This document shows positions 29,906-37,862 of a stretch of DNA of 52,504 nucleotides, piece by piece (positions within the stretch are counted from its first letter, which is position 1; every line of letters begins with the position of its first letter). A program made the position numbers and the translations under genes. Source of the DNA: an uncultured Methylibium sp. (GTDB taxonomy: Bacteria > Pseudomonadota > Gammaproteobacteria > Burkholderiales > Burkholderiaceae_C); the NCBI RefSeq assembly GCF_902826655.1, contig NZ_CADEFR010000024.1, positions 1 to 52,504 on the forward strand, written 5' to 3'. The notes beneath the pieces were generated by a model. It was not told the DNA's origin. It saw only the letters and a list, made by a program, of their open reading frames with translations, and did no database searches.

Positions 29906-29929
29906 AGGCGGCCCGCGAGGCCGCCTTTT
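29906..29929 (+). terminator. Rho-independent terminator after the chemotaxis receptor
   Basis: AGGCGGCC, loop CGCGA, GGCCGCCT and then TTT (to 29929). The minus-strand AraC gene ends at the same spot, so the hairpin separates convergent units. Confidence 0.8.
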
Positions 29930-30879
29930 CACTTGGCGCGCCGGTAGTCGCTGGGCGACAGCCCGAGGTGGCTGCGGAACACGCGGCTGAAGTGCGCCAT
30001 GTTCGAGAAGCCGAAGGCGAAGGCGATGTCGGTGATCGAGCGCTGCTCGTTGGCACGGTCGTCGAAGCTGCGGCGGCAGGCCTCGAGGCGGCGCCGCAGG
30101 ATGTAGCCGGCCACGCCGTCGGGTTCTTCGGCGAAGGCGTTGTAGAGCTGGCGCCGGCTGCAGTTGAGCGCGTGCGCGATGCCGTCGACCGTGAGCCCCG
30201 GGTCGCCCAGGCGCGCAGCGACGTGCTGCTTGATGCGCTCGCGCAGCGCCTCGCGCTGCGTCACCGCGGTGCCGATGCCGGCCAGGTCCAGCATCGCCAG
30301 GTGCACGAACTGCGTGATCGCGTCGCCGACGCCGCGCGCGGCCGTCTCCGACATGCCCGGCAGCTCGCGGTAGGCCGAGCGCATCGTCTCCAGCGCCAGC
30401 CGCGCGACCCCGCCGCTGCCGCCCAGGCGCCGCGCCATCAGCGGGTCGAGCGAGACGCCGCGTTCGGCGAGGCGCGCCTTGGGCAGCATGACGATCAGGT
30501 GCTCGACGCGCACCGGATTGGCGACCGCATAGCTGTCGGTGGTGTCGTAGATGCTCCACTGGTCGGGCGTGACCCAGGCCTCGCGGCCCTTCTGCTCGAC
30601 CCCGGCGCAACCGACATAGGGCGCGACGATCTTCAGGTAGCCGACCTCGGAGCTGCGCACCATCGCGGCCGAGCGCATCACGCGGTGGCGGTTGGCCTCC
30701 AGTCGCGTCAGCACCACGTCGCCGGCGTGCAGCGTGGTCATGCGGCCGTCGAAGCCGCCGTCGCCGTAGAGGTCGGACTTCAGGCCGCAGAACAGGCGAT
30801 CGATCCAGTCCGACCAGTAGCCGCCGCGCTCGGCCGGCGCGACCTGGTCGGTGTTCATCGCGGTGCTGGTGATGGCCAT
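29929..30879 (-). CDS. AraC-family regulator, FeaR-like
   Basis: A 316-residue regulator. The N-terminal half (about 20-190) resembles the AraC-binding-like domain of FeaR/NahR-neighbour regulators (ADVVLTRLEANRHRVMRS-like core, LVMLPK-like strand). The C-terminal domain has two helix-turn-helix motifs, VDGIAHALNCSRRQLYNAF and ITDIAFAFGFSNMAHFSRVFRSHLGLSPSDYRR. FeaR-type proteins usually activate genes for aromatic amine or aldehyde breakdown. The gene is divergent from an ABC transporter-aldehyde dehydrogenase operon, so control of that operon is the likely role. The ATG at 30879 follows GGAGGG. Confidence 0.88.
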   Translation of the reverse strand: MAITSTAMNTDQVAPAERGGYWSDWIDRLFCGLKSDLYGDGGFDGRMTTLHAGDVVLTRLEANRHRVMRSAAMVRSSEVGYLKIVAPYVGCAGVEQKGREAWVTPDQWSIYDTTDSYAVANPVRVEHLIVMLPKARLAERGVSLDPLMARRLGGSGGVARLALETMRSAYRELPGMSETAARGVGDAITQFVHLAMLDLAGIGTAVTQREALRERIKQHVAARLGDPGLTVDGIAHALNCSRRQLYNAFAEEPDGVAGYILRRRLEACRRSFDDRANEQRSITDIAFAFGFSNMAHFSRVFRSHLGLSPSDYRRAK

Positions 30880-31096: not shown

Positions 31097-32317
31097 ATGA
31101 CCGCACGCCGTCCTTTGCCCGCGGGCCTGAAGCGCCGCACCGTCCTGCAGGCGGCGTCGGCCGCGTCCGCCGCGCTGGCCCTGCCCGGCCTCGTGCGCGC
31201 CCAGGCGGCGCCGGTGCGCATCGGCTACGCCATCGCGCGCACCGGGCCGTGGACCACCGGCGCGCAGGTCAGCCAGGAGCCGAACTACCTGCTGTGGGCC
31301 GAGCAGCAGAACGCGGCCGGCGGACTCAGCGTCAAGGGCGCGAAGCGGACCATCGAGCTGGTCAGCAGCGACGACCAGAGCAACATCGAGACCTGCGTGC
31401 GCACCTACGAGAAGCTGATGGGCAGCGACAAGGTCGACCTGGTGCTGCCGCCCTGGGGCAGCAACGCCAACTTCGCGGTCGCGCCGCTGGCCACGCGCTT
31501 CGGCTATCCCTTCCTCGCGCCGACCGCGCTGAGCCGGCGGCTGATCGAGATGAAGCTGCCCTACTTCTTCTCGCTGCTGCAGCAGCCGGCGCCGATGATG
31601 AACGCGCTGGTCGACATGCTCAAGGCCAACGGCGTGCGCTCGATCGCGACGATCTACGTCGACGACCTGTTCGGCCTGGAGAACTACGCCGCGCTCAAGG
31701 TCGCGCTGCAGGGCACCGGCATCAGCCTGGTCGAGGACAAGAGCTACCCGCTCGGCGTGAAGGACCTGTCGCCGGTGCTGCGCAGCATCAAGGACAAGAA
31801 CCCCGACGCCTTCGTCGGCCTGACCTACCCGCCCGACACCATCCTCGCCAGCCGCCAGAGCAAGGAGATCGGCTTCAACCCGAAGTTCTTCTACGCCAGC
31901 GTCGGCACCGCCTTCCAGCTCTACCGCAACGTGATGACGGCCGCCGGCGCCGAGGGCGTGCTGGGCATGGGCTCGTGGAACGCCAAGACCAGCCCCGGTG
32001 CCAAGGCCTACTTCGACGCCCATGTCGCCAAGTACGGCGCGCAGAAGGAACCCGACCGCTGGGCCAGCGGCGCGACCTGGGCCGGGCTCGAGATCCTGAC
32101 CGCCGGCGTCGCCAGGGTCGGCCTGGACCGCAAGGCGCTGCGCGACTACGTGGCGAACACCGAGCACTCGACCATCCTCGGCAAGATCAGGTTCGCCGGC
32201 AGCGAGAACGTCGGCACGCCGGGTTCGGTGGGCCAGTGGCAGAAGGGCGAGTTCGAGGTGGTCTGGCCCAAGTCGAACGCGACCTCGACGCTGATCGCCA
32301 AGCCGGCGTGGAGTTGA
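31097..32317 (+). CDS. ABC transporter substrate-binding protein, branched-chain amino acid / aromatic type
   Basis: A 406-residue periplasmic type I binding protein of the LivJ family. The export signal contains KRRTVLQAASAASAALALPGLVRAQA, with twin arginines that may route it through Tat. The mature domain starts VRIGYAIARTGPWTTGA. Many members bind aromatic acids or amides rather than leucine, and the adjacent aldehyde dehydrogenase favours an aromatic ligand, which is inference. An AAGGAG ribosome site precedes the ATG. First gene of the operon; a large hairpin separates it from the permease genes. Confidence 0.9.
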   Translation: MTARRPLPAGLKRRTVLQAASAASAALALPGLVRAQAAPVRIGYAIARTGPWTTGAQVSQEPNYLLWAEQQNAAGGLSVKGAKRTIELVSSDDQSNIETCVRTYEKLMGSDKVDLVLPPWGSNANFAVAPLATRFGYPFLAPTALSRRLIEMKLPYFFSLLQQPAPMMNALVDMLKANGVRSIATIYVDDLFGLENYAALKVALQGTGISLVEDKSYPLGVKDLSPVLRSIKDKNPDAFVGLTYPPDTILASRQSKEIGFNPKFFYASVGTAFQLYRNVMTAAGAEGVLGMGSWNAKTSPGAKAYFDAHVAKYGAQKEPDRWASGATWAGLEILTAGVARVGLDRKALRDYVANTEHSTILGKIRFAGSENVGTPGSVGQWQKGEFEVVWPKSNATSTLIAKPAWS

Positions 32318-32408: not shown

Positions 32409-33287
32409 ATGAGCCTCGGCGCCTGGCTCGAACTGATCGCCTCCGGCCTGATCACCGGCGGCGTGTATGCGCTCGTCGCGCTGGGGTTGAACCTGCAGTA
32501 CGGGCTGATGCGCATCCTCAACATCGCGCATGGCGAGTTCCTGATGGTCGGCGCCTTCCTCACCTGGACTGCGCAGTCCACGCTGGGGCTCTCGCCGCTG
32601 CTGATGATCCCGGTGTGCTTTGCGGTGCTGATGGCGATGGGGCTCGTCATCCATCGCCTGAGCTTCCGGCGCCTCGCGCGCACCAGCCCCAACCTCGACG
32701 TCTTCGAGGCGCGCGGCCTGATGGTCGCCTTCGGCCTGATGTTCCTGCTGCAGAACGCCGCGCAGCTGCTCTGGGGCGGCGACCTGCGCGGCTACGACTA
32801 CCTGACCGGGCCGGTCGCGATCGGCGGCGCGCAGTTCGCGGCCAACAAGCTGCTGCTGCTGGCGCTGGCGCTGGGGTTCAGCGGCGCGCTGATCGCGGTG
32901 CTGCGCGGCACGCTCTACGGCAAGGGCGTGCGCGCGCTGATGCAGTCGCCGACCGGCGCGCAGCTGGTCGGCATCGACACGACGCGGCTGCACCCGCTGA
33001 TGTTCGGCGTGGGCCTCGGCCTGTCGGGCGTGGCCGGCTGCCTGCTGTCGATGACCTACACGATCTCGCCGACCATGGGCGAGCCCTACACGGTGACGGC
33101 GCTGATCGTCATCACGCTCGGCGGCTTCGGCAGCATGGCCGGCGCACTGGTCGGCGGGCTGGCGCTGGGCGTCGTCGAGGCGCTGGGCATGCACTTCGCC
33201 AGCCCGTCGCTGAAGTCGCTGCTCTCCTACGGCATCTTCATCGCGGTGCTGCTGTGGCGGCCCAACGGCCTGTTCGTGCGCAAGTGA
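32409..33287 (+). CDS. Branched-chain amino acid-type ABC permease, LivH family
   Basis: A 292-residue inner-membrane permease with about eight helices. Typical LivH features: ASGLITGGVYALVALGLNLQYGLMRILNIAHGEFLMVGAF at the N-terminus and VITLGGFGSMAGALVGGLALGVVEALG near the end. It pairs with the LivM homologue encoded seven bases downstream to form the channel of the transporter. Confidence 0.93.
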   Translation: MSLGAWLELIASGLITGGVYALVALGLNLQYGLMRILNIAHGEFLMVGAFLTWTAQSTLGLSPLLMIPVCFAVLMAMGLVIHRLSFRRLARTSPNLDVFEARGLMVAFGLMFLLQNAAQLLWGGDLRGYDYLTGPVAIGGAQFAANKLLLLALALGFSGALIAVLRGTLYGKGVRALMQSPTGAQLVGIDTTRLHPLMFGVGLGLSGVAGCLLSMTYTISPTMGEPYTVTALIVITLGGFGSMAGALVGGLALGVVEALGMHFASPSLKSLLSYGIFIAVLLWRPNGLFVRK

Positions 33288-33294
33288 GCGGCCC

Positions 33295-34259
33295 ATGAGA
33301 CGTGACTTCCTGATCCTCTTCGCGCTCGCCGGCTGGGCCTTGTCGGTGCCGCACTACGGCAGCGACTTCGCCGTCTCGCTGGCGCTCACCTGCCTGATGT
33401 ACGCGGCGCTCGCCACCAGCTGGAGCCTGTTCTGCGGCACGACCCGCTACCTGTCGCTGGCGACGGCCGCCTTCTTCGGCATCGGTGCCTACACCAGCGC
33501 GCTGGTGCTGGACGCAGCCGGCTGGGCCGCGGCCATCGGGCTCGGCGCGGCGATCGCCGCGGCCGTCGCCGTCGTCATGGGCCTGGCGGTGCTGCACCTG
33601 CGCGGCACCTACTTCGCGGTGCTGACCTTCGGCATGACCGAGCTGATCCGCCATGCCATCACCTGGTGGGAGAAGCAGGTCACCGGCACCGTCGGCCGCG
33701 TGCTGACCACCGTGCCCGACCGCGACACCATCTACCTCACGATGCTGGCCCTGGCCGTCGCAGCCGTGGCGACGGCCATCGTCGTGCGGCGCAGCCGCTT
33801 CGGCCTGGCGATGGCCGGCATCGGCGCCGACGAACAGCGCGCGCAGACGCTGGGCGTGAACACGCGGCTCGTCAAGACCGCCGGCTTCGCGCTGACCGCG
33901 GCCTTCGCCGGCGCGGTGGGCGCGGCGATGAGCGTGCGCTGGACCTACATCGACCCGGCCACGGTCTTCAACCCCTTCATCGGCTTCCAGACCGTGCTGA
34001 TCGCGCTGATCGGCGGCGCGGCCACGCTCTGGGGCCCGCTGATCGCCGCCGTGGTCTTCAGTCTGCTGGCCGAGACGCTGCGCCTGCAGGCACCGCAGGT
34101 CTACATGATGTCGCTGGGCCTGCTGCTGATCCTGTGCGTGCTCTACCTGCCGGGCGGCCTGGCCTCGCTGCGTGCGGCGACGCTGCGGCAGTGGCGCGAC
34201 GACCTGCAGGCGTGGTGGCGCGCGCTTCGCCGACCCGGCGCGCAATCCGGGAGCACCGC

Positions 34260-34263
<4 letters not shown>
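33295..34263 (+). CDS. Branched-chain amino acid-type ABC permease, LivM family
   Basis: A 322-residue membrane permease. The LivM pattern is clear: LSLATAAFFGIGAYTSALVLD, LRGTYFAVLTFGMTELIRH, RRSRFGLAMAGIGADEQRAQTLGVNTRLVKTAGFALTAAFAGAVGA, and IGGAATLWGPLIAAVVFSLLAETL. Its stop overlaps the livG start (ATGA). Confidence 0.93.
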
Positions 34264-35002
<739 letters not shown>

Positions 35003-35006
<4 letters not shown>

Positions 35007-37246
35007 ACAACGAGATCGAGACCGCGCTCGGCCGCCGCCTGGCCCACCTGAAGGTCGAGGGCCTGTCGGCCGGCTACGGCGCCTTCCTGGTGCTGCGCGA
35101 GCTGTCGCTGGAAGCGCGGCCCGGGCTGACGGTGATCCTCGGGCCCAACGGTGCGGGCAAGACGACCTTGCTGAAGGCGATCGCAGGGCTGATCCCGCGC
35201 GGCGGCAGCTTGACGCTGGACGGCCAGCCGATCGAGCGTGACGCGAAGACGAGCGAGATCGTCCGGCGCGGCATCGCGCTCGTGCCCGAAGGCCGGCAGC
35301 TCTTTCCCCAGATGTCGGTGGCCGAGAACCTCGAGCTCGGCGGCTGGCTGCTGCCGCCCGACGAACGCGCGCGCCGGCTCGAGCAGGCCTTCGCGGACTT
35401 TCCGAAGCTGCGCGAGCGCGCCCGCCAGCTGGCCGGCACGATGAGCGGCGGCGAGCAGCAGATGGTGGCCGTGGCCCGCGCGATGATGAGCGCGCCGCGC
35501 CTGCTGATGCTCGACGAACCCTCGCTCGGCCTCGCGCCGCGCATGGTCGACGAGCTGCTCGCGATCGCGCGCCGCATCGCCGATGCCGGCACCACCGTGC
35601 TGATGGTCGAGCAGAACGTGCGCAAGGCGCTGGCCGTCGCCGACCGCGGCTACGTGATGGAGCGCGGCCGCCTGGTCGCCAGCGGCCCGGCCACGCTGCT
35701 GGCGCGGTCCACCATCGTCCGCCAGGCCTATCTGGGCAGCGGCGCTGCGGCCGCTCCGACAGCCACCAGTTCCCCCGCGAAGGAGAGTCCCATGTCCGAT
35801 CTGTCCATGCTCATCAACGGCCTCGCCGTTTCTGCCGAGAAGGGCGCGACCTTCGAGCGCCGCAACCCGCTGGACGGCAGCGTCGCGACGCGCGCGCCCG
35901 CAGCCAGCGCCGCCGACGCGGTGGCCGCGGTCGAATCGGCGGCCGAGGCCTTCCGGACCTGGAGCCAGGCCGGCCCCGGCGAGAAGCGCGCCCTGCTGCT
36001 GAAGGCCGCCGACGCGCTGGAGGCACGCACGCCCCGGTTCATCGAGGCGATGGCCGCCGAGACCGGCGCCACCGGCCCGTGGGCCGGCTTCAACGTGATG
36101 CTGGCCGCCGGGATGATCCGCGAGGCCGCCGCGCTGACGACGCAGATCGCCGGCGAAGTGATCCCATCCGACGTGCCCGGCTCGCTCGCCATGGGTCTGC
36201 GCCAGCCGGCCGGCGTGGTGCTGGGCATCGCGCCGTGGAATGCGCCGGTGATCCTGGGCGTGCGCGCGATCGCCGTGCCGCTGGCCTGCGGCAACACCGT
36301 GGTGCTCAAGGGCAGCGAGAACTGCCCGCGCACCCACCAGCTGATCGTCGAGGCCTTCCAGGACGCCGGCTTCGCGCCGGGCGTCGTCAACTACCTCACC
36401 AATGCGCCGGCCGACGCCGGCGCGGTGGTCGAGGCCATGGTCGCGCACCCGGCGGTGCGGCGCGTCAACTTCACCGGCAGCACGCGCGTCGGCAGGCTGA
36501 TCGCGATGACCTGCGCCAGGCACCTGAAGCCGGTCGTGCTGGAACTGGGCGGCAAGGCGCCGCTGGTCGTGCTGGACGATGCCGACCTCGACGCCGCGGT
36601 CGATGCCGCGGCCTTCGGCGCCTTCGCCAACAGCGGGCAGATCTGCATGAGTACCGAGCGCCTCGTCGTCGACGGTCGCATCGCCGACGACTTCGTCGCG
36701 AAGTTCGTCAGGAAGGCGAAGTCGCTGCCGCTCGGCGACCCGCGCAAGCCCGAGCCGGTGGTGCTGGGCTCGGTGGTCGGCATGGGCACGGTCGAGCACT
36801 GCAACGCGCTGATCGACGACGCGCTCGCCAAGGGCGCAAAGCTGCTGTGCGGCGGCAAGGCCGACAGCACGCTGATGCCGGCCACGGTGCTGGACCACGT
36901 GACGCCGGCCATGCGCATCTACCGCGAAGAGACCTTCGGCCCGGTGAAGTGCGTCGTGCGCGTCGACGGCGTCGAGGCCGCGGTCGCCTGCGCCAACGAC
37001 AACGAGTACGGCCTGTCGGCGGCCGTGTTCGGACGCGACGTGGCGCGTGCGATGAACGTGGCCCGGCGCATCGAGTCCGGCATCTGCCACATCAACGGGC
37101 CGACGGTGCACGACGAGGCCCAGATGCCCTTCGGCGGCGTCAAGGGCTCGGGCCTGGGCCGCTTCGGCGGCAAGGCGGGCATCGCCGAGTTCACCGAGCT
37201 GCGCTGGATCACGGTGCAGACGGCGCCCCGGCACTATCCGTTCTGA
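35003..37246 (+). CDS. In-frame fusion: LivF-family ABC ATPase joined to aromatic-type aldehyde dehydrogenase
   Basis: A single open frame of 747 codons. Residues 1-240 are a LivF-type ATPase: Walker A GPNGAGKTTLL, signature MSGGEQQMVAVARAM, Walker B LLMLDEPSLGL, H-loop-equivalent MVEQNV, and the usual end RQAYLGSG. No stop follows. Instead an Ala/Pro/Ser/Thr stretch (AAAAPTATSSPAKESP) leads directly into a complete 484-residue aldehyde dehydrogenase that starts at an internal ATG (35792) with its own AAGGAGAG ribosome site. Both halves look intact. The cell could make the fusion, free dehydrogenase, or both; free ATPase could only come from cleavage. A lost livF stop (real or a sequencing error) is the main alternative. 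Confidence 0.85.
35792..37246 (+). CDS. Aldehyde dehydrogenase, salicylaldehyde/vanillin dehydrogenase-like (internal start)
   Basis: Starting from the internal ATG gives a 484-residue NAD(P)-dependent aldehyde dehydrogenase of normal length. The catalytic Cys285 lies in NSGQICMSTERL and the general-base Glu251 in VLELGGKAPLVVL. The cofactor region has GIAPWNAPVILGVRAIAVPLACGNTVVLK and FTGSTRVGR. The IAGEVIPSDVPGSLAMGLRQPAGVV segment is characteristic of the benzaldehyde / salicylaldehyde / vanillin dehydrogenase branch, so oxidation of an aromatic aldehyde to its acid is likely. AAGGAGAG six bases upstream of the ATG supports independent initiation even though the frame is open to livF. Strong terminator downstream. 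Confidence 0.85.
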   Translation: MSDLSMLINGLAVSAEKGATFERRNPLDGSVATRAPAASAADAVAAVESAAEAFRTWSQAGPGEKRALLLKAADALEARTPRFIEAMAAETGATGPWAGFNVMLAAGMIREAAALTTQIAGEVIPSDVPGSLAMGLRQPAGVVLGIAPWNAPVILGVRAIAVPLACGNTVVLKGSENCPRTHQLIVEAFQDAGFAPGVVNYLTNAPADAGAVVEAMVAHPAVRRVNFTGSTRVGRLIAMTCARHLKPVVLELGGKAPLVVLDDADLDAAVDAAAFGAFANSGQICMSTERLVVDGRIADDFVAKFVRKAKSLPLGDPRKPEPVVLGSVVGMGTVEHCNALIDDALAKGAKLLCGGKADSTLMPATVLDHVTPAMRIYREETFGPVKCVVRVDGVEAAVACANDNEYGLSAAVFGRDVARAMNVARRIESGICHINGPTVHDEAQMPFGGVKGSGLGRFGGKAGIAEFTELRWITVQTAPRHYPF

Positions 37247-37260
37247 GGCTGGTGGCCGCA

Positions 37261-37294
37261 CGGAAGAAACGGGCCCGCGGGCCCGTTTCTTCCG
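37261..37294. terminator. Bidirectional terminator between aldehyde dehydrogenase and Cys-repeat protein genes
   Basis: CGGAAGAAACGGGCCC and its exact reverse complement are separated only by GC, giving a stem of up to 14 bp. The A-rich/T-rich flanks supply a T-run on both strands. It lies between two convergent genes. Confidence 0.9.
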
Positions 37295-37310
37295 GTCGAG
37301 AGGCGGCGAC

Positions 37311-37862
37311 TCAGCCCTTGCCGAACTTCGCCTTCGCGTCGGCGACGCAGCTGGCCTTGGCGTCGCCCGACAGCGCGTCGCACTTCTCGAGCGCCACCTT
37401 CAGGTCGGCCTCGCGCTTGTCGGCGGTCGCCTCCCGGGCCGCGGCGCCGGTCGCCTTGCTCATCCTGGCGTCGGCCAGGGCCTTGGTCTCGGCGGCCTTG
37501 GCTTCCTTGACGCAGACGTCCTTGTCGTTGCCGGCCTTGTCGTCGCACTTCTCCTTGGCGACCGCGTAGGCCGTCTCGGCCCTCACGACCAGCAGCTTGT
37601 TGCGGTCGTCCGGCTTGCCGCTGTAGCTGGCGTCGAGCTCGGCCCGCGCGACCTTCTCCTTGCCCTTCGCCTGCTCGACGCAGACGTCCTTGCCGTTGCC
37701 GGCCAGCGAGTCGCAGGCAGCGCGATCGGCCTTGTGGTCGGCTTCGATGCGCGTCTTCGCGGCATTGAAGTCGGCCTTGCTCATGCCGGCGGCGTGAACC
37801 ACCGGCAGAGCCAGCATGGCGGCGACGATGATCGAGGTCTTGAGAGCGAAGGTCTTGTTCAT
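37311..37862 (-). CDS. Periplasmic protein with three Cys-pair repeats, unknown function
   Basis: A 183-residue exported protein. A signal peptide (MNKTFALKTSIIVAAMLALPVVHA) is followed by a highly charged, Lys/Ala/Asp-rich mature part, probably alpha-helical. Three similar units are visible: ACDSLAGNGKDVCVEQAK, KCDDKAGNDKDVCVKEAK and KCDALSGDAKASCVADAK, each with two cysteines 11 residues apart. That suggests three intra-unit disulfides or a metal/thiol function. Similar proteins are annotated as hypothetical in Burkholderiales. A CGTAGGAC motif shared with other genes in this region lies about 110 bases upstream of the start. Confidence 0.8.
   Translation of the reverse strand: MNKTFALKTSIIVAAMLALPVVHAAGMSKADFNAAKTRIEADHKADRAACDSLAGNGKDVCVEQAKGKEKVARAELDASYSGKPDDRNKLLVVRAETAYAVAKEKCDDKAGNDKDVCVKEAKAAETKALADARMSKATGAAAREATADKREADLKVALEKCDALSGDAKASCVADAKAKFGKG

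Follow-up and report, generated by a model that had tools for sequence, protein, structure and literature searches.

In ABC importers, the ATPases bind the inner face of the permeases, and some of them, such as MalK, MetN, and ModC, carry C-terminal regulatory domains. The enzyme under study here is an aldehyde dehydrogenase (ALDH) whose nearest solved relatives by sequence in the PDB are a vanillin dehydrogenase (9ihb), a salicylaldehyde dehydrogenase (6qhn), and NahF (4jz6). We take 6qhn to be SALDAP, in agreement with the title of that entry. SALDAP is reported to be a dimer that prefers benzaldehyde (PMC12718228), and a second source describes SALDpp as dimeric and one related enzyme as trimeric (PMC5324060). 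The words “transporter” and “fusion” are absent from the main text of PMC5324060, as are “ABC transporter” and “fusion” from that of PMC12718228. A gene that yields a long chain as well as a C-terminal product has been described for cas8b, in which Cas11b is made from an internal start with a possible Shine-Dalgarno (SD) sequence (PMC11899642). For a fusion of the LivF-ALDH type, we found no published description among open-licence PMC papers; it consists of known domains in a recurrent combination.

The importer operon and its fused frame

We analyzed a stretch of 52,504 nucleotides from an uncultured Methylibium sp. (contig NZ_CADEFR010000024.1), called the window below. It contains a row of genes that begins with a divergent AraC-type regulator (29929..30879, minus strand; AraC_binding_2 and HTH_18 by Pfam; start at 30879 or 30858) and continues on the plus strand with a periplasmic substrate-binding protein (31097..32317; Peripla_BP_6 by Pfam, with AAGGAG before the start), a LivH-type permease (32409..33287), a LivM-type permease (33295..34263), and a LivG-type ATPase (34260..35006), the TGA of which overlaps the livF ATG. 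LivF-ALDH is the last gene of the row. With a binding protein, two permeases, and two ATPases in the operon, and with the Walker A, signature, and Walker B motifs present in LivF, the importer is of the HAAT type. LivG and LivH fell short of the LIV amino-acid equivalog cut-offs, scoring 192.6 of 362 bits and 90.4 of 379 bits, respectively.

Two details of the flanks can be recorded here. The N-terminus of the binding protein (31097-31200) has an RR motif ahead of a hydrophobic stretch (MTARRPLPAGLKRRTVLQAAS...) and by eye resembles a Tat-type signal. At the other end, 3′ of the fusion stop, lies a terminator-like hairpin without a T run (37261..37294, plus strand; −31.2 kcal/mol for 37259-37300), which was not among the four terminator-like sites of a consensus scan; the promoter scan found none. 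Facing this hairpin is a convergent gene at 37311-37862, whose 183-aa product has an N-terminus resembling a signal and drew no match from Pfam at 1e-5.

The first-pass annotation had proposed that a LivF-like ATPase runs without a stop into a complete dehydrogenase across a flexible-looking linker, and both statements held: the frame at 35003-37246 (plus strand) is open over 747 codons and terminated by TGA, and residues 247-263 have a pLDDT below 50 in an AlphaFold model. Pfam places ABC_tran at residues 32-174 and Aldedh at 279-736 of the fusion. The LivF-type part covers residues 1-246 (35003..35740), with GPNGAGKT, MSGGE, and LMLDEP intact by Pfam and a motif check. It is followed by a stop-free linker of 17 residues rich in Ala, Thr, Ser, and Pro and predicted to be disordered (35741..35791), and then by a complete ALDH of the salicylaldehyde/vanillin dehydrogenase type (35792..37246, residues 264-747), which has its own ATG at 35792 and in which the Cys and Glu motifs were found. 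The model as a whole has a mean pLDDT of 87.0 and consists of two confident domains, with low confidence confined to residues 1-13, the linker, and 715-718. Note that a mechanical ORF of 762 aa runs antisense across the entire fusion. Long frames are common in the GC-rich DNA of the window, so the open frame alone proves little, and relatives were therefore compared.

Fused relatives, frame retention, and the internal start

A search of 399 genomes of the family gave 109 matches at E 1e-200; the junction was read in 72 of these 109 genomes, and 23 of the 72 carried the fusion. Together with one locus from a search of the order (L184) and two named records (L068 and L081), these make 26 distinct fused loci. 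Counted by LivF identity of at least 70%, there were 67 loci, 27 fused and 40 not, and one of the former (L065) copies another (L054), which again leaves 26. We built a tree of 64 rows from LivF and ALDH without the linker, leaving out L065 as a copy and L128 and L170 as too short. The 25 fused rows form one clade (support 99/93) requiring one change of state, and the 30 rows of its sister clade all have LivF and ALDH as separate genes; no reversal was seen within the fused clade. A quick tree of 87 rows recovered the same fused clade with a support of 93.

These relatives bear on the plain alternative, already raised in the first-pass annotation, that a sequencing error or the loss of a single stop in this one genome had joined the genes. 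It is contradicted by 26 distinct fused loci forming one clade: no stop interrupts the junction in any of the 25 fused-clade rows, and the two genes are separate in 30 of 30 sister-clade rows. Two fused genomes (G085 and G119) are single-contig assemblies, which makes a draft-assembly error an unlikely cause. Sequencing error and a chance open frame are thus ruled out by the fused relatives in one clade, and comparison of the sequences confirms the LivF-ALDH fusion as genuine and beyond chance. The motifs of both domains are retained in the 28 fused loci checked, with the exception of E.FGP, one of six patterns, which was not found in L068 and L184.

The gene order is identical in the sister clade and in alphaproteobacterial relatives with LivF and ALDH separate, and fusion is therefore not required for function. 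Across 19 neighborhoods annotated with a crude gene finder, the recurring families were ALDH/LivF (19), the binding protein (18), LivH (18), and LivM/LivG (16). Of the 18 other neighborhoods, 11 had a homologous divergent regulator; the gene finder missed the window's own copy, and most flanking genes were not common to the 19. The importer-ALDH operon thus looks like a self-contained recurring module. It is a patchy one, given that the five other genomes of the window's genus, within the same family search of 399 genomes, had no match at E 1e-200. Among loci with ALDH identity of at least 45%, 59 of 114 had no LivF within 1.5 kb upstream, some of them being cut by contig ends.

Ala, Ser, Thr, Pro, Lys, and Glu abound in the linkers of the fused clade, which otherwise vary freely and evolve fast. 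By parsimony, at least 12 length changes have occurred among these linkers (12-21 residues), all of them preserving the frame. Of 25 changes in spacer length in the sister clade, 11 were frame-altering (Fisher P = 0.007 against the fused clade, with the counts treating changes as independent events). The total branch lengths of the fused and sister clades are similar, at 2.57 and 3.00, and a loss of frame in the fused clade would appear as a separate row inside it; none was seen. Retention of the frame across lineages and length changes makes it well supported, from sequence comparison, that the fusion is under selection. We set aside the stop-free linker as evidence by itself, since that very property served to define the fused loci, and stops are scarce in the linkers' other two frames as well (4 in 860 codons). 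Third-position GC in the linkers was 0.78, against about 0.94 in genes and an overall GC of 0.56 in 39 spacers of unfused loci, a comparison that is suggestive only, and substitutions in nine pairs of linkers fall on all three codon positions.

Past the shared core, which ends at residue 246, LivF has tails of 1-3 residues in the outgroup and 14-37 in the sister clade, next to the linkers of 12-21 residues in the fused clade. Possibly a tail was acquired first and later became continuous with the reading frame of the gene downstream. In four other loci (L133, L137, L139, and L140), LivF has a long Ala/Pro-rich C-terminal tail that almost reaches a more distant ALDH of 40-44% identity across spacers of 436-559 nt; the LivF-ALDH pair has been elaborated differently there.

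The dehydrogenase had also been said to retain its own SD site and ATG at 35792, and it does: AAGGAG lies within the linker at 35780..35785 (plus strand), spaced for the ALDH start, with an SD energy of −8.8 kcal/mol. This is the strongest value among the five starts measured in the operon, ahead of LivG (−6.6), LivM (−3.9), LivF (−3.0), and LivH (1.1). All 26 fused loci have an SD energy of −6.6 kcal/mol or better at the internal start (median −8.5; 92% at −7 or better), similar to the −8.1 of 40 unfused genes, and 2.8% of 1,542 other in-frame ATG or GTG codons reach −7. The start codon is ATG in 20 of the 26 and GTG in 6, and the codons preceding it vary. A conserved SD and start codon, as expected for internal in-frame translation, were thus found in 26 of 26 loci. 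RNA structure at the internal start was no more stable than in shuffled sequences (z = 0.14). Two products from one gene would be the simplest reading of this conserved internal start, and selection appears to keep both the fusion and the free enzyme.

The architecture recurs outside this clade. A search of 98 genomes in another family of the order gave 15 matches at E 1e-150, and in 14 of 16 loci examined, LivF is in frame with an ALDH whose nearest relatives are benzaldehyde and 4-hydroxybenzaldehyde dehydrogenases (two partial loci, L245 and L247, are counted among the 14). The remaining two are an ALDH alone (L243) and a fusion to an ALDH of the window's type (L246). SD energies in this second clade ranged from −9.3 to −12.1 in the 11 loci with the start properly placed; the values for L241, L242, and L244 were left unused because their projected ALDH starts were misplaced by at least one codon. 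In a quick tree of LivF sequences, the window's clade groups with its unfused relatives, and six LivFs of the second clade lie outside that group; this tree placed six of the 10 second-clade loci tried, four having been missed by the pattern, and it has long outgroup branches with the outgroup not on one side. Hyphomicrobium sp. CS1BSMeth3 (L071) and L246 are fused amid otherwise separate, mostly alphaproteobacterial genes, and a tree of 49 rows including both needs three changes of state, which leaves room for either two gains or a gain plus a loss in that group. Judging from these trees, the LivF-ALDH architecture arose at least three times in all, including once or twice among operons of the alphaproteobacterial type.

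Among 99 loci without an adjacent LivF match, none had a further ABC ATPase in an open frame upstream of the ALDH, and eight had a long upstream frame. One of these eight loci (L169:937-5211, plus strand) has an open frame of 1,425 codons that leads from a TPP enzyme (TPP_enzyme N, M, and C domains) into an ALDH 82% identical to that of the window, with AAGGAG and ATG at the junction. This single case may be chance, or it may join an aldehyde-making type of enzyme to the ALDH. In-frame joining of this ALDH type to a neighbor is therefore not confined to importers.

Proposed mechanism and its alternatives

The Cys and Glu motifs and a predicted full-length fold assign the ALDH to the salicylaldehyde/vanillin type. 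In a structural comparison, its identity is 65% to 6qhn and 53% to 4jz6, and from the former we infer that it oxidizes aromatic aldehydes with NAD+. No named NCBIfam ALDH equivalog could be assigned: among the best 25 of 224 families, none reached its cut-off, HpaE being the best at 340.1 of 638.35 bits.

We also considered the import of mandelate or benzoylformate as a shared role. At E 1e-100, the benzoylformate decarboxylase family occurs in 7 of 24 fused genomes, 2 of 24 separate ones, and 0 of 18 others, and it was not found in the window's genome at that threshold. In two loci, the decarboxylase lies within about 9 kb of the ALDH start (L176:15861-17558 and L081:15896-16966, the latter a shorter ORF below the family cut-off). 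Since the family is present in only 7 of the 24 and absent here, no single substrate is supported, and we rejected this role, keeping it as a hint. The window's genome does have a 4-hydroxybenzoate hydroxylase above cut-off, which could allow it to use an acid such as 4-hydroxybenzoate. In a plasmid of Ensifer sp. PDNC004 (L229), downstream of the unfused operon lie genes annotated as an SDR, a TPP-requiring protein, and a member of the 2,4′-dihydroxyacetophenone dioxygenase family, a hint at an aromatic ketone or aldehyde as substrate.

The reading we favor, and consider somewhat better than evenly supported, is one gene with two proteins, in which the fused ALDH would be tethered to the cytoplasmic face of the importer, free subunits would complete the oligomers, and incoming aromatic aldehyde would be oxidized. 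Translation from 35003 would give a LivF-linker-ALDH chain of about 80 kDa, and initiation at the internal SD and ATG (35780-35794) would give free ALDH. LivF would sit beside LivG under the LivH/LivM pore, with the ALDH held on its flexible linker at the cytoplasmic mouth; such a tether at the pore exit is plausible. A free ALDH subunit would pair with the tethered one, as it could do because related ALDHs are mostly dimers. An entering aromatic aldehyde, or a precursor that yields one, would then be oxidized to the acid, which would hold down the level of the toxic aldehyde and maintain a steep inward gradient. The aromatic substrate, the making of both proteins, and the aid that the tether would give to oxidation at the membrane are the parts of this scheme that are deduced.

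Fusion might instead do no more than set a minimum of one ALDH per importer, or couple folding or translation, with nothing gained from proximity to the pore. We regard this as rather unlikely. It fits the sister genomes, in which livF and the ALDH gene are already adjacent and co-directional, and it fits the strong internal start of the fused gene, which makes the supply of enzyme independent of a tether. Against it, adjacent genes with good SD sequences are already coupled, and coupling by itself leaves unexplained both the retention of the frame through 12 changes in linker length and the recurrence with another ALDH subfamily.

Neutral loss of the livF stop is improbable. On that account, the long chain would be an innocuous side product of a LivF indifferent to its C-terminal extension and an ALDH translated from its own start, which agrees with the natural range of LivF tails (1-3 residues in the outgroup, 14-37 in the sister clade), with retention of the internal start in 26 of 26 loci, and with the joining of the same ALDH type to an unrelated upstream gene in L169. 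Neutrality should have produced out-of-frame linkers, however, and there are none in the 25 fused rows, whereas 11 of the sister clade's 25 spacer changes altered the frame. Three or more origins of the architecture also speak against it, as does the retention of both domains' motifs in the fused loci checked, save for E.FGP in two of them. That the ALDH is a regulatory C-terminal domain, sensing aldehyde or NADH and gating transport, is very improbable: it does lie where other importers' ATPases bear such domains (as in MalK, MetN, and ModC), on a short linker of 12-21 residues, but that linker is predicted to be disordered and evolves fast, and the retained catalytic motifs imply that the ALDH is at least also an enzyme.

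Going beyond the tethered pair of proteins favored above, we propose only tentatively, and think it less likely than not to hold in full, that these loci represent a class of importer with a pathway enzyme built into the ATPase, with at least three origins and two ALDH subfamilies, in which mixed oligomers of tethered and free subunits would oxidize the substrate where it leaves the pore, perhaps with feedback on ATP hydrolysis. If such a class exists, import and the first catabolic step would be one machine.

Comparison with known systems

Whether bacteria physically couple an ABC importer to the enzyme that starts its pathway is difficult to examine when the association is weak; here the connection is covalent, conserved, and has evolved repeatedly. 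Nature also supplies unfused sisters and apparent intermediates, with LivF in short, tailed, and fused forms, and the value of the tether is thus directly testable by separating the domains. The gene has apparently been selected to make fused and free forms of one enzyme.

Compared with the LivFGHMJ importers of the HAAT family (branched-chain amino-acid/urea type), the operon has the same parts and its ATPase motifs are intact. It differs in that the second ATPase is fused to a catabolic enzyme, with LivG and LivH below the amino-acid equivalog cut-offs. As in MalK, MetN, and ModC, the extra domain follows the ATPase and would lie on the cytoplasmic side, but here it is a whole oxidoreductase with its catalytic motifs. 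Cas11b within cas8b is alike in being one gene with an internal start; there, the second product has been demonstrated and belongs to the same complex as a subunit, whereas here it is suggested by conservation only. Finally, NahF (4jz6), 6qhn, and 9ihb share the Cys and Glu motifs of the dehydrogenase, but those are free enzymes of 467-500 residues, and the window's ALDH additionally forms the C-terminal portion of an importer ATPase.
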